From assembly GCF_002007485.1 (NCBI RefSeq), contig NZ_CP015820.1, positions 1,488,001 through 1,552,000 on the forward strand: a stretch of DNA of 64,000 bases, in the 5' to 3' direction. The stretch comes from Ditibartonella apihabitans (GTDB taxonomy: Bacteria; Pseudomonadota; Alphaproteobacteria; Rhizobiales; Rhizobiaceae). A program made the position numbers and the translations under genes. This document shows, piece by piece, positions 426 to 7,624 of the stretch. Position 1 is the first letter of the stretch; each line of letters opens with the position of its first letter. Under the pieces are notes generated by a model, which saw only the letters and a list, made by a program, of their open reading frames with translations, had not been told where the DNA came from and made no database searches.

Positions 426-1123
426 CTTAAGTCTTTGATTTACAAGTCTAATTTCCGAAACACAAAAATTCACATATTAAAGTTTGACACTTTTTTGAAG
501 AGTTTGACAATTTATGTGCTCTTTTTGTTCATTCTTGCAACCGAGTCGCACAACGGCCACTTCGTTTTTTGCCTTGTTCCGGTAATCGTAAATAGTGCCT
601 TTCAATACATTAAACATATCATTATCGATATCACCAATCGGCATGTCAGAACTGAGGTGTGAATCAACGAGCTTGTTGTTCAACGTCGGCTCTTCATGTC
701 ATTGTTACAGCCTCTGATAATAAAGAATATCCGAGCTTTTTTTGCTTTCAACACCTAATTAGTCTTCTGTTGTCAGCATCTGGTGTTTTATCTTTTCCTT
801 CTTTTGTGGAGCAAAATCATTGCCAATTTTCCTATAATGGTCATTGCCATATCCGCCAGCAAAGTCGGTACCGACTAATATCCCGGTTCTGTCAGAATTG
901 TTTTCGTCAATTCCTGTGTCAGAGATTTGGTCAAATCATGGTCTTTAATACCCGAGATTATTGGCAAATCCGCCGATAATCCTATCAACCTTTCTATAAG
1001 CAAACTGTTACAATTACTGTGAATTCGATACAAAAACTTATTGTTGAAATTTATAAATTGCATTGTGGTGCTTTTCGTTCGATTGCATAGTAAATATCAT
1101 GCAGTAAATGGAGACCGGTTCAA
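426..1123. other. About 700 bp with no supportable gene, next to tRNA-Thr
   Basis: Only short overlapping open frames on both strands (for example 435-662 + and 875-1063 -), none with a convincing ribosome binding site or recognisable motif. The texture is that of decayed coding sequence, but I cannot name a parent gene. Confidence 0.6.
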
Positions 1124-1753
1124 GTGGATAAAGATAAATTAATTGATGTTAAGCAAAGGTTTTCTGTTTGGTGTGCATCAACCGCAGCCAGGGCTTCAAG
1201 GAATTGTCGATTTACGGGTGAACAAGGTGCAGAGATTGCTCTTAATAGCTCACTTTTGGACTATCAGACTTTAGACGATTTACCTGACCCGCTTGAATTT
1301 GATAATTTACATAAAAAATTACGGCAAAAAATTTGTCTAGCGGCCGAAAATACTATCAAAAACAAAACAATGCAGTTCACACACGGTGTAGCTGCAAAAT
1401 TTATAAATATTTATTTTAAAGCTATGTTCCTAAATGACGTTCCAGCAGAACACTCTGACTACGAGAACAAAATAAACGCTTTGCATCCGCCGATAGACCG
1501 CCTCTTATTGCAAAAATTAGCAGAAAAAAATGTTGGCGGCCTCAGAAATTTTTGGCAGTGGAATGTATTTATAGGGTGGTCCAATTTTTCTTCCGACGAT
1601 TATGAAGAGATTATAAAACATATCAAAGATGTAACCAAAGGTCATTTATGGGAAATTGAAGAGTTTTGGCCCGGTTTTAATAAAACTAAAAAAGTTACCA
1701 ATAATCCAACATTACCATTTTATGAAACAAAAACACAAAACAATGTTCCGTAA
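1124..1753 (+). CDS. Hypothetical protein, 209 aa
   Basis: I do not recognise this protein. The frame begins at a GTG (1124); a stop lies in frame at 1091 and there is no in-frame ATG between, so GTG is the likely start, although no strong Shine-Dalgarno sequence precedes it. The product is soluble-looking, rich in Lys, Asn and aromatic residues, with no signal peptide or membrane segment. Distinct blocks are KINALHPPIDRLLLQKLAEK (about residues 126-145) and a Trp-rich FWQWNVFIGWSNF segment. It stands alone between tRNA-Thr and a porin relic. Unbroken length over 209 codons in a region otherwise full of stops suggests that it is or was recently a real gene. A transferred accessory gene is the simplest reading. 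Confidence 0.55.
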   Translation: MDKDKLIDVKQRFSVWCASTAARASRNCRFTGEQGAEIALNSSLLDYQTLDDLPDPLEFDNLHKKLRQKICLAAENTIKNKTMQFTHGVAAKFINIYFKAMFLNDVPAEHSDYENKINALHPPIDRLLLQKLAEKNVGGLRNFWQWNVFIGWSNFSSDDYEEIIKHIKDVTKGHLWEIEEFWPGFNKTKKVTNNPTLPFYETKTQNNVP

Positions 1754-1873
1754 GCCTACAGCTCAATTGTGTTTAACTTTCGTACTCTGATGGCTTTGTT
1801 TTTTAACCTTGCTACAATACCGATAGAATAGCAGCCGCATCGAAATTATCATGGTTAAAAAGCCCTACCGGTC

Positions 1874-3434: not shown

Positions 3435-3710
3435 TTAACTCTGTTCTTGCATCAATCCTTGCCAAGCTTCGTAGGCCTCCAACACGGTCTCCATCTGCAT
3501 TTGGTGCCCAAGCTTAAAATCATCCCCATAAACAGTCTCGTCGGGATATTCTGTGACCAATTCTACCTCGAAAGTGGCATTGGGATAAAGCGCAAAAAAC
3601 AGGGAATGCCATTGATTGTTTCAAACCCCGGTTCACCGGCATTAATCTGCACACCGACACCGTTAATGTTGCAGTCGACGATCAAAAATGTAACAGATCA
3701 GACCTGTGCA
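3435..3710 (-). pseudogene. Frameshifted remnant of an unidentified small gene
   Basis: On the minus strand one frame reads VDCNINGVGVQINAGEPGFE (from about 3690). It continues, after a frameshift near 3610, into LFFALYPNATFEVELVTEYP and DETVYGDDFKLGHQMQ in another frame, ending at TAA (3435-3437). The protein-like composition on both sides of the shift indicates a former coding sequence of at least 85 codons. The 5' end is missing because a stop lies in frame just upstream. I cannot assign a family. It lies just upstream of pip on the same strand. Confidence 0.45.
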
Positions 3711-4583
3711 TAGCGCGAAATTCTCACGTCAAACACAAAATTATTCTAAAATAAGCTAATTTCTTATAATTTAATATTGCATTTTCTCCCGTCTGAATTT
3801 CCTCTTCAGGAAGTGTATATACAGTAATAAAATAACTCAAAATATATATAAATTATTTCTTAATATAAATTTGAAACTTTTTCCATATAAAAAAACAAAA
3901 TCGTTTAGAATATTTATCGAATATTCATAGTCTAACTGCATAACATTGCAATTCTATTTCATTATTTTGTTAAAATAATACTCTTTTATAACAATATTAT
4001 AAAATATAGTTATTGTATTACTCTATTTTTAACATTGTCGTTTTGTTGTTTTATTTTTTTAAATTCATTTATTTCCGATTGATAAAACTTAATAATCAAT
4101 CAGAACAATTTTTATTTAAAGCAAGTTGTTTCATAAACTTTTAAATCTGAATTATTTGATTGGATTCATAAAATATAAAAGATTATACTTAATGTCATTA
4201 ATCGCATAAGCGGCAGCGTCTGAACTACCTGCACCAACGAAGAAGGCCGAGGATGATGCTTGACGTATGAGTATCTGACATGCGTGTGGAATCTTCGTCT
4301 ATCAGGCCGGATTGTGTAGCAGCTTCTTTGATTATGCCGTTGGTATGCGGCGCAATCAGCGTGCTGACAGCTGTAGATTCGATACAGCGCAATCGCCAAT
4401 CACCAAATTCTTTGGTCATTATCTTTTCTTGTAGTGTCTCTAACTCTTTTTATTCTGATGAGTTTACAGCCCTACTAGAGTGATGAAGCTATCAGAGAAC
4501 CTACAAACCTATTTGATAGGTGTCATTTGATATCTTTCATCACAATGCTTTTCACGATTGTTGTGTTTTATAAAACAGTTTAA
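3711..4583. other. Very AT-rich gap without a supportable gene
   Basis: About 3720-4165 is strikingly AT-rich, with long runs of A and T and stops in all frames. A short minus-strand frame at 4225-4419 (64 codons) has somewhat protein-like composition but weak start signals and no family resemblance. The base composition is unlike the neighbouring core genes and fits transferred or relaxed DNA. Confidence 0.6.
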
Positions 4584-5333
4584 TTATATCTCGTAATAGC
4601 CTTTATAAAAATCTTTTGGCATTAAAGAGATTAATTCCGATGACCTTTCATGAAATTTATCAGGTTGGTTAACAATATCAAACATATCATTTGTAACAAA
4701 AATTGTTATATGATTTAGAGTTTCTTCTACTCTAAAACCGGCTTCTTTTATGATCGAAACGTCAATACTCTTATAGAGATCTTTTCTCAAAGACTGTGCC
4801 CAATAAGGAAAGGGAATATTAGGGTTATCCCACCGACCAAAAGAGGTTAATTCATATTTAGGACGTTTAATTTCTCCCAAAGAATTCATATGCAAACATG
4901 ATAACTCGACATCATAAAACCAGTTTAATAGCTCCATATAAAAGTCCTGCCAATTAAAACTATCCAGGTTTTTATTTGTCAGCGGAAAATCAATCCTCAG
5001 ACGACTACGCGGCATAGGATGTGTTGGGCTAAAATTTCCAATTGAGAAATGACCACTATATTTAAATTTTTTTCGTCTTCTGAAATAAAAACTATAAGAT
5101 TTAGATAGTTTTGTTATTTCGTCGAATACTTCTTGTCTATTTGTCTTGAGCTTGTCATAAGAAAACGGATGACGAATGCGTTCAGGATCATCCGAGATAA
5201 ATTCAACGACAAGCCTTTCATCATATTGGCATAGCCATTCAATGAATTTTTCAAAAAAAACTTCCCTTTGTTCAGGTATTGTTGTGTTGTAAAAACACAA
5301 CTTAATATGTGGTGGCTCTTCACCAAATTTCAT
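4584..5333 (-). CDS. Putative immunity protein of a polymorphic toxin system
   Basis: A 249-aa cytoplasmic-type protein. The start is set by a GGAGG six bases before the ATG at 5333; a TTG at 5354 is in frame but lacks this. The sequence is rich in aromatic and charged residues, with FGEEPPHIKLCFYNTTIPEQ at the N terminus and GRWDNPNIPFPYWAQSLRKD in the middle, a composition usual for Imm-type proteins. I suspect an Imm52-like family, but that is recall, not a search. The main support is position: it starts 23 bases after the stop of a decayed toxin C terminus (5357-5870), the standard toxin-immunity order. If so, the immunity gene has outlived its toxin, either by chance or because it protects against neighbours. 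Confidence 0.6.
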   Translation of the reverse strand: MKFGEEPPHIKLCFYNTTIPEQREVFFEKFIEWLCQYDERLVVEFISDDPERIRHPFSYDKLKTNRQEVFDEITKLSKSYSFYFRRRKKFKYSGHFSIGNFSPTHPMPRSRLRIDFPLTNKNLDSFNWQDFYMELLNWFYDVELSCLHMNSLGEIKRPKYELTSFGRWDNPNIPFPYWAQSLRKDLYKSIDVSIIKEAGFRVEETLNHITIFVTNDMFDIVNQPDKFHERSSELISLMPKDFYKGYYEI

Positions 5334-5356
5334 AATGCCTCCAAATATATTCAAGA

Positions 5357-5870
5357 TTAAGGTAAGGGTATCTCTATCAGGCTCGGAGCTCTACTATTGA
5401 AGATTCCGCCTTTTCCTCGATCATAAGCATATACCTTACCACCTATTCGCTGTATTTCTTTTATAAGTTTACTGCTTAATCTGTTCAGGGGATCCGTTCC
5501 GCGTTCTGCATCAATAATAAATTTATATTGAATGCCTTGATCTTAAGCAAGTTGGATTTTTGCTTAGAATTGCTTTTTATTTCTGAGGTAGCGAACATTT
5601 TTTAGTTCGGGAATGACAATATTCACAGTAAAATCAGTTATTGTCCTGGCTGAGCCACCATCTTCCCATAAAGCCTATCTTCTGGCGTCTTAACCTCCTT
5701 CGCGATCTTGTTGGATACATATTTGATGCCCTTGGCCGTATTCTCGGCAGCCTGCGCACCGATATCAGAAACCTTGCTACCTTTCATGTTTAATGTCGTT
5801 CACAACATGAATATCTTAACCGGCGACCGCAATATGCTCACCAGCATCAAGGTTGATACTGGTTATTTCA
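5357..5870 (-). pseudogene. Decayed CdiA/FhaB-like toxin, C-terminal remnant
   Basis: Reading the minus strand from about 5870, one frame gives INLDAGEHIAVAG, a stop, then DIHVVNDIKHER, resembling haemagglutinin repeats of two-partner-secreted exoproteins. A second frame gives SDIGAQAAENTAKGIKYVS and KTPEDRLYGKM. A third gives DFTVNIVIPELKNVRYLR, then two in-frame stops, then FIIDAERGTDPLNRLSSKLI and ends LIEIPLP at TAA 5357-5359. The VIPELKNVRYLR block followed by a LIVD-like strand resembles restriction-endonuclease-fold toxin tips (ExK core), for example Tox-REase families. At least two frameshifts and three stops make it non-functional. The large N-terminal secretion and filament part is absent from the window. 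Family naming is inference from pattern. Confidence 0.6.
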
Positions 5871-6083
5871 ATGCGAGCTTAATAGTTCAATACCCCTGCC
5901 TCCTATATGAGCGAATGACTTTCCGCCCGAAGGGGCTACCTGAAATAGCTATAAGGTGACGGCTCGATATGCGTCTCGCTATTGCGGGGACTAAAATTGC
6001 GCAAATAATCTATTATAACATATGGCAGTTTTCGCCCCCTCCTTGATGAAGGAAGACACAAAGGCTTAGCTCTTTTAAATTTT

Positions 6084-6575: not shown

Positions 6576-6922
6576 ACCATCTTTCTAGACTTGAAACAGT
6601 CTAAGCGCATCCATTGTTAATTTAAATAATAAAATAAGGCCGAAAAAAGTTCCAATACCGTCTTTTATTCGACAATTACGGATTGCCGAGTTGTCACGTT
6701 AAGGTGCATCAATCAGAATAACGAACACACCACCCGCTTACAGACTTATTTCCGCTTTTGTTGATTATTTTCAAGCCTCTGTCGGCAGATAAAAACAACT
6801 TTTATACAGTTTTAAAAAAAAGATTTTTGAATGATATACGGAAATACAATATTATAAAATTCCTGATAGTTAGTCCATATTGCGAAAAATAAAAGTAAAG
6901 CTATAAAAATAAACATATAAAA
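6576..6922. other. Intergenic, no gene seen
   Basis: AT-rich sequence between the nuclease-like gene and the terminator of the next minus-strand gene. No open frame, repeat or RNA signature is apparent. It must hold the promoter of the nuclease gene near 6600-6700, but I cannot place it with confidence. Confidence 0.5.
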
Positions 6923-6955
6923 AACGGTTCAATATACATTTTATATTGAACCGTT
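6923..6955 (-). terminator. Rho-independent terminator of the 214-aa gene
   Basis: A perfect 14-bp inverted repeat (6923-6936 with 6942-6955, sequence AACGGTTCAATATA) around a 5-base loop. On the minus strand it is followed by a run of T. It lies 25 bases after the stop of the gene at 6980-7624. Confidence 0.85.
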
Positions 6956-6979
6956 ATACAAATAAATAATATATTTTAG

Positions 6980-7624
6980 TTAATAGACAACAGCAAAATG
7001 AATTGATCCGATAGCGCCTGCAAAAATTTGCTTGCCATCCTGTGCAACTTGTTGCACTGCCTTTTGGTCAATTGCATTGCGATCCCACATTGTTCCGCCA
7101 ATGCTCCCCTGCTTCCAGTCAACCGGTTTACCAAGAAGATTTTCGGCATCCTTCTGGTTATAGATCTTTGCAGTGTCATTTTGCAGGGCTTTGAACAAAG
7201 CATCATCACCTTTTGTAAGGCCACCAAGCTGGGCGGTCGATTTAACAAGGTCTTTCAGCTTATCGTCACTGATTTGAGGAGGTGTAAACACCTGAAAATT
7301 GCCCGTTGGAACACCTTCGAACCCGGCATATTTAGCCGCATCGGCATCCCTCAAAGTGCCGGTAAAATATTGCGGATTTGTCATGTTCAAATTGACTTGC
7401 TGATTGATAATGCCGGATGCATTAATACCTTTTTCAACAAGTTCCTGAATACGCGATAACGCGTCGGAAATACGTGGCGACATCACATTACGATCATCGA
7501 CACGCACGGTCTGTGTCGCATTCTTTTCCTGAACAATTTCCTGAATATTCTGGGCAGCCCGCAACCCCGGAACATCAAAACCATGATTGACCAAGTTCAA
7601 GTCGGTTGATGTGATTGATACCAT
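6980..7624 (-). CDS. Hypothetical protein, 214 aa, unknown family
   Basis: Not recognised. Expression signals are good: GGAGG six bases before the ATG at 7624 and a strong terminator directly downstream. No signal peptide, lipobox or membrane helix is visible. The N terminus (VSITSTDLNLVNHGFDVPGL) is followed by a probable amphipathic helix (RISDALSRIQELVEKGINAS), then a Gln/Asn/Thr-rich middle and a C terminus with WKQGSIGGTMWDRNAIDQK and AGAIGSIHFAVVY. The lack of Cys, the polar composition and the short hydrophobic end recall exported structural or effector proteins of Gram-negative bacteria, but I can give no specific function. It is a monocistronic gene in the accessory region. Confidence 0.75.
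   Translation of the reverse strand: MVSITSTDLNLVNHGFDVPGLRAAQNIQEIVQEKNATQTVRVDDRNVMSPRISDALSRIQELVEKGINASGIINQQVNLNMTNPQYFTGTLRDADAAKYAGFEGVPTGNFQVFTPPQISDDKLKDLVKSTAQLGGLTKGDDALFKALQNDTAKIYNQKDAENLLGKPVDWKQGSIGGTMWDRNAIDQKAVQQVAQDGKQIFAGAIGSIHFAVVY

Follow-up and report, generated by a model that had tools for sequence, protein, structure and literature searches.

A probable orphan immunity gene of contact-dependent inhibition next to the truncated tip of a dead toxin in Bartonella

The locus

A 64,000-nucleotide stretch of the Ditibartonella apihabitans genome (contig NZ_CP015820.1, positions 1,488,001 to 1,552,000), hereafter the window, carries on its minus strand an intact gene for a 249-aa protein next to the remains of a toxin of the contact-dependent inhibition (CDI) type. 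The locus is a new example of CDI orphan immunity, in which a real orphan immunity gene stands beside a dead and truncated toxin tip. The genome of the window (G000) is a single contig of 2.60 Mb, and the same arrangement occurs in two other Bartonella genomes, G007 and G823 (taken to be Bartonella sp. M0177, a honey-bee gut strain); these three are called the carriers below. The features of the locus, in window coordinates, are as follows.

4584 to 5333, minus strand: intact 249-aa immunity gene, CdiI-like, with an Imm52-like predicted fold (from sequence, homologues and a predicted model)
5338 to 5342, minus strand: ribosome binding site GGAGG, four bases before the ATG (from sequence)
5357 to 5662, minus strand: remnant of a Tox-REase-7-type nuclease tip, front part missing, with the hidden Markov model (HMM) match at 5408-5653 and the terminal TAA at 5357-5359 (from profile and alignment)
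5650 to 5880, minus strand: end of the cdiA haemagglutinin repeats and start of the pretoxin region (...LWEDGGSAR), with frame changes and stops (from DNA alignment with genomes G824 and M0177)
4243 to 4371, minus strand: pretoxin region of cdiA, second half, which lies 3' of the immunity gene (...STLIAPHTNGIIKEAATQSGL...; from tblastn)
4155 to 4298, minus strand: possible extra pretoxin piece (AAAYAINDIKYNLL) in a neighbouring frame, weak (from tblastn)
4370 to 5645, no strand assigned: segment of the three carriers that holds the toxin piece and the immunity gene (from alignment with G824)

The open reading frame (ORF) of 249 codons runs from an ATG at 5333 to a stop at 4584-4586, and exactly 23 bases separate this ATG from the terminal TAA of the toxin frame. 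The spacer, including its ribosome binding site, is identical across all three carriers. Both the intact gene with its ribosome binding site and the 23-base gap had been described in a first-pass annotation made from the sequence alone, and both stand; the span of 5357-5870 that it gave to the feature was too narrow, as the second pretoxin half lies beyond the immunity gene.

None of the Pfam, NCBIfam, PADLOC and PHROG models matches the 249-aa protein, and Pfam applied to all seven members of our immunity profile A3 returned no family at E values up to 10. The immunity family to which the gene is assigned is not detected by any Pfam model. Identities as a phage-defence gene and as a phage gene were rejected for want of a PADLOC and a PHROG match, respectively. 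The curated Imm52 sequence model, run with no positive control, did not match the family either. Viral contigs yielded 51 pattern matches, none confirmed as a relative, and a profile search of PDB sequences gave three chance-level CheW rows.

The toxin remnant and the cdiA pseudogene

A toxin profile of 126 positions, built from the three intact toxin tips of related bacteria described below, scores 31.6 bits on window positions 5408-5653 of the minus strand (profile positions 40-121), against a best score of 3.9 bits among 500 dinucleotide-preserving shuffles, 345 of which gave any score. With the same profile the copies in G007 and M0177 score 26.9 and 23.7 bits, and the sister genome G824 gives no match. 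The Pfam model Tox-REase-7 (PF15649), with stops read through, picks up the remnant at E 8.7e-5, its 24.1 bits falling short of the curated cut-off of 25; the short open piece of toxin alone reaches E 0.078, and the 61-aa toxin frame has no match among plasmid records. An HMM search had been proposed for both partners, and it succeeded for the toxin, with a score short of the cut-off, and failed for the 249-aa protein. The claim of toxin fragments in several frames with stops holds in part: the fragment is real and there are frame changes in the haemagglutinin and pretoxin part, but a single frame holds the nuclease part; it has two stops in the window copy, and the first of these recurs in the other two carriers.

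The start of the pretoxin region runs in frame into the toxin piece (...DGGSAR/TITDF...), so that each of the three carriers lacks the front of the nuclease domain. The motifs given for Tox-REase-7 are GxxxE, IxD, ExK and Q (PMC3482391); GxxxE is missing together with the front of the domain, ITD and ELK are present in the three copies, and the last position is Q in the window and G007 and K in M0177. Profile and alignment support the reading of the upstream remnant as two thirds of the same nuclease domain, that is, as the broken tip of what would be the matching toxin type.

On both sides of the toxin piece and immunity gene lie parts of a cdiA pseudogene. For the part at 5650-5880, tblastn finds matches in G824 and M0177 and none in the window and G007 copies themselves. 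In a tblastn search with the exoprotein of G708, which belongs to the family of the window genome, the second pretoxin half scores 29.3 bits in the window, 30.8 in G007 and 37.7 in M0177, against a best of 26.9 bits in 300 mononucleotide shuffles of window 3560-4460 (222 scored); the possible extra piece reaches 26.9 bits in the G007 copy only and is no better than the best shuffle. G824 has an uninterrupted pretoxin region with one stop, scoring 62.0 and 63.5 bits against the exoproteins of G708 and of G316, another member of the family. Alignment with G824 indicates that the toxin piece and the immunity gene form a cassette of about 1.28 kb inside the pretoxin region of the pseudogene, where it occupies the place of about 81-84 bp of G824 sequence.

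The presence of pretoxin-related sequence on both flanks is also what would be expected of an ancestral tandem array, in which cdiA, with a toxin and an immunity gene, preceded an orphan module opening with a second pretoxin copy; recombination between the two pretoxin copies would then have removed the cassette from G824, and the carriers would separately have deleted most of the first copy. We regard this history as unlikely, since it requires two independent deletions, each G824 flank aligns once per carrier, and the break regions in the window share no exact repeat of at least 8 bp.

A search for the two-partner secretion (TPS) domain of CdiA-type exoproteins recovered both positive genomes, G708 and G316, and gave no match in any of the three carriers; CdiB-type transporters were not searched for. 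A search of the window genome with PF13332 gave no match and was equally silent in the controls, so it is uninformative.

Cognate pairs in related bacteria

The cognate context of the 249-aa family was discovered through weak plasmid matches in Rhizobium (three records, best E 3e-3). In R. anhuiense T24 (locus L009), a 252-aa homologue with 32% identity over 72 residues starts 9 bases after a Tox-REase-7 ORF, at a locus with haemagglutinin repeats, and the tip of that ORF matches PF15649 over the curated cut-off (E 3.4e-17, 62.9 bits). Profile searches then brought up the homologues in G316 and G708. In G316 the start of the homologue is separated by 8 bases from a haemagglutinin-type ORF whose end encodes the same nuclease domain, and in G708 (L017) it overlaps the end of a 3295-aa exoprotein, at a locus with a TPS domain (E 1.8e-53). 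The restriction-endonuclease (REase) tips of L009, L015 and L017 score 219.7, 229.5 and 210.9 bits with the toxin profile and their full-length immunity homologues 401.1, 402.9 and 351.7 bits, these sequences being themselves rows of the scoring profiles.

An REase tip stands directly upstream in four of the eight non-Bartonella homologue loci, intact in L009, L015 and L017 and partial in L016. Within the stretches examined, L008, L010 and L057 have no such tip, and L018 ends at a contig end; L010, L016 and L057 contain immunity-gene fragments only. L016 (genome G247, 4196-4530) holds another pair of fragments: behind an ORF for a haemagglutinin-type exoprotein, the partial tip precedes the beginning of a gene of this immunity family. 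At L008, on the R. leguminosarum plasmid pRlBT01c (1778-6765), a full-length homologue ends a run of short hypothetical genes, which may be an array of orphan immunity genes.

The lack of any Pfam, NCBIfam, PADLOC or PHROG match could also mean that the 249-aa protein is an unrelated gene that lies by chance beside cdiA remnants and has no role in immunity. Three intact pairs with the same toxin type in the same order, together with the Imm52-type fold matches given below, make this most improbable, and the candidate was rejected. Cognate neighbours and predicted fold instead support the gene as a putative CDI-type immunity gene. In this respect the proposal of an orphan immunity gene beside a broken toxin tip, made in the first-pass annotation, has been borne out, and neither of the two outcomes that it had named as fatal was obtained: the family is linked to toxins, and the remnant upstream matches Tox-REase-7.

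Predicted fold of the immunity protein

The model of the window protein has a mean predicted local distance difference test (pLDDT) score of 62.2, and its best Foldseek match is PA0821 (E 2.4e-5). On re-alignment, the top six entries are PA0821, four TsiT/Imm52 entries and BPSL2088, at Z scores of 8.7-10.8; a CdiI complex is seventh (Z 7.9), and the row after that drops to 6.2. A model of the G316 homologue (pLDDT 50.3) also has PA0821 as its first Foldseek match (E 5.1e-4); on re-alignment these six entries again come out on top, at Z 9.1-10.7, and the seventh row falls to 4.9. The agreement of the two predicted models on Imm52-type entries is specific, and on these low-confidence models the 249-aa protein is predicted to have an Imm52 fold.

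TsiT and PA0821 are immunity proteins, and BPSL2088 is a hypothetical protein according to its PDB title. The Imm52 proteins (TsiT/PA3908), PA0821 and BPSL2088 resemble the 249-aa protein in predicted fold over almost the whole length; Imm52 differs in that no sequence profile connects it with this family, and in that the neighbour here is Tox-REase-7. PA0821 is also the best DALI match of TsiV3, which blocks a PD-(D/E)xK nuclease effector (PMC9635880). A 2012 survey pairs Imm52 with Tox-REase-5, and Tox-REase-7 with ImmHEAT, Imm23 and Imm54 (PMC3482391); as other partners are listed for both, the pairing of an Imm52-like fold with Tox-REase-7 may be unrecorded.

Distribution

Immunity profile A3 matches three of 71 Bartonella genomes, namely the carriers, and three of 398 genomes of the phylum; profile A2 matches three of 397 sampled genomes of the order and four of 394 of the family, these four genome sets overlapping and all including the window genome. 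The sister genome G824 has no immunity-profile match. Tox-REase-7 at E up to 0.01 is found in the same three Bartonella genomes, always at this locus and always with a TAA inside, and no match among the 71 exceeds the cut-off. The only Tox-REase-7 match in the window genome is the truncated one at this locus, with its two TAA; no functional cognate toxin was detected in that genome, and the immunity gene is in this sense an orphan. The expectation that kin still carry the toxin was thus not upheld, and the suggested search of related strains for an intact cdiA with this tip came back empty in the 71 Bartonella genomes and positive in L009, L015 and L017. Among the papers listed by literature searches on Bartonella, none describes a CDI relic of this kind in its title or in the displayed opening of its abstract.

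Probable transfer of the cassette

Across the three pairs of carriers the immunity gene has 0.070, 0.070 and 0.042 silent differences per site, against 0.243, 0.178 and 0.243 for five neighbouring genes pooled, and is 2.5 to 6 times less diverged at such sites (Fisher P 6e-7, 6e-4 and 2e-9). The remnant at 5357-5800 has diverged by 0.05-0.07, about as much as the silent sites of the immunity gene, and non-coding divergence outside the block is 0.17-0.29 at 5881-6083, 0.19-0.23 at 3750-4250 and about 0.10 at 4251-4459. Trees of the flanks group M0177 with G824, with the alternatives rejected, although M0177 has the cassette and G824 has none. Low silent divergence, shared lesions and flank grouping together suggest that the cassette probably moved between species with the toxin already dead. 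A toxin that simply decayed in place, as had been supposed, is not supported by these results, because the piece was already truncated when the cassette became common to the three species.

Selection and the proposed role

It is highly probable, in our view, that the gene for the 249-aa protein is an orphan immunity gene of the CDI type that was exchanged between Bartonella species in a cassette after the death of its toxin. The cognate neighbours, the predicted fold, the shared lesions, the low silent divergence and the missing TPS match are computed results; that the protein would be expressed, bind its target and protect, and that the cassette was transferred, we infer. The Tox-REase-7 tip, of restriction-endonuclease fold, would be delivered by a neighbouring cell as part of a CdiA exoprotein, and the 249-aa protein would, by analogy, bind the incoming tip and block its nucleic-acid-binding or active face. 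TsiV3 has been modelled to block the substrate site of a PD-(D/E)xK nuclease; for TsiT, the reported point of action is the oligomerisation of TseT (PMC9635880). The resident cell would be unable to attack with its own copy, given a toxin piece that lacks the front of its domain and carries stops, a cdiA pseudogene and no TPS exoprotein found. The cassette would most likely have been exchanged between related Bartonella species by recombination in its flanks. An orphan CdiI can be made and can protect when its toxin is not produced (PMC3150448).

Several observations weigh against this interpretation. The cognate pairing is drawn from the gene order of homologues with 16-25% identity, and specificity may have changed. 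Both structural models are of low confidence and have alignment rows in common, and no sequence profile ties the protein to Imm52. Low divergence is also seen elsewhere nearby (0.040 for window and G007 at 6576-6979; a silent divergence of 0.097 for window and M0177 in a 214-aa gene), so the cassette block is not unique. An approximately unbiased (AU) test on the 150-230 bp common to G824 does not reject the flank topology, and the case for transfer therefore rests on divergence depth and patchy presence. Near the gene there are three promoter-like sites against a shuffle mean of 5.9, and no terminator-like site against a shuffle mean of 1.2. Finally, the 45 changes from the majority sequence among the carriers comprise 32 replacement and 13 silent changes, where 34.0 replacement or stop changes are expected without selection (P = 0.29). 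Substitutions in the immunity gene look neutral and lend no support to the earlier claim that selection keeps it, and the gene may accordingly be an unexpressed passenger.

These counts would also suit a neutral relic, an immunity gene whose expression or use has ceased and which no disabling mutation has yet struck, the low divergence being due to ordinary regional recombination. This could well be the case, though we hold it to be somewhat less than an even prospect. It agrees with the even spread of variable sites over codon positions (15/14/15), a chance of 0.143 of meeting no stop under neutrality, the absence of the gene from G824 and the lack of a detected TPS domain in the carriers. 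Weak signals point the other way: among the 46 residues that three or more of the four outgroups have in common with it, only one varies, compared with 26 of the other 203 (P = 0.036); divergence is lower in the gene than in the remnant for each of the three pairs (0.032/0.056, 0.049/0.072 and 0.037/0.052), significantly so in one (P = 0.049, 0.12 and 0.24); and the spacer with its ribosome binding site is unchanged in the carriers. Variable residues in the protein show no significant clustering (11 in 50 residues, P = 0.17).

More speculatively, the orphan gene could represent an unnamed Imm52-fold family, cognate to Tox-REase-7, that spreads among bee-gut Bartonella as a purely defensive cassette with the dead toxin as baggage and protects species without a detected CDI weapon from CDI-armed neighbours; we consider this extension rather doubtful. 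A common assumption is that orphan immunity persists as long as neighbouring cells possess the weapon. The locus offers a natural test of such upkeep: three species share the gene and its dead toxin, a sister species is without the gene, and related bacteria have intact cognate toxins. It further directs attention to an immunity family lacking a model, of use in annotating Tox-REase-7 systems, and to a CDI relic in Bartonella.

Neighbouring features

The 214-aa ORF mentioned above (window 6980-7624, minus strand) has no credible family match and is strongly conserved in three species, with a ratio of replacement to silent divergence (dN/dS) of 0.05-0.06. Just 3' of it, an inverted repeat at 6923-6957 looks like a hairpin terminator, and its sequence can be aligned with G007 in reverse orientation as well. 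A 209-aa ORF at 1124-1753 on the plus strand, likewise with no credible family match, has a counterpart of 202 aa in M0177 and is missing from G007, which has no alignable sequence for about window 1006-1825. In another Bartonella genome (G006, locus L032), the neighbouring thermonuclease-like gene carries an internal TGA.

Comparison with known systems

The closest parallel is found in the orphan cdiA-CT/cdiI modules (Poole 2011, PMC3150448), which likewise have a toxin fragment without start signals of its own and an immunity gene with a start codon and a Shine-Dalgarno sequence, and for which the orphan immunity protein has been shown to be made and protective. Unlike those modules, the present one has a truncated toxin with stops, lies inside a pseudogene pretoxin region, and is accompanied by no TPS exoprotein that our search could find (CdiB was not searched for). 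Known orphan immunity arrays are similar in that immunity genes stand apart from the toxin and accumulate replacement changes; in gut Bacteroidales, replacement changes at the interface have been reported together with protection (PMC12247911). Such arrays have a recombinase and demonstrated protection, whereas here there is a single gene with putative protection. The bee-gut setting is shared with orphan domains of Rhs toxins that have immunity genes linked to them, for which a defensive use has been proposed in Gilliamella apicola; those Rhs toxins are tied to the type VI secretion system (T6SS) in other genera (PMC8125069), while the locus described here holds a CdiA-type remnant in Bartonella.
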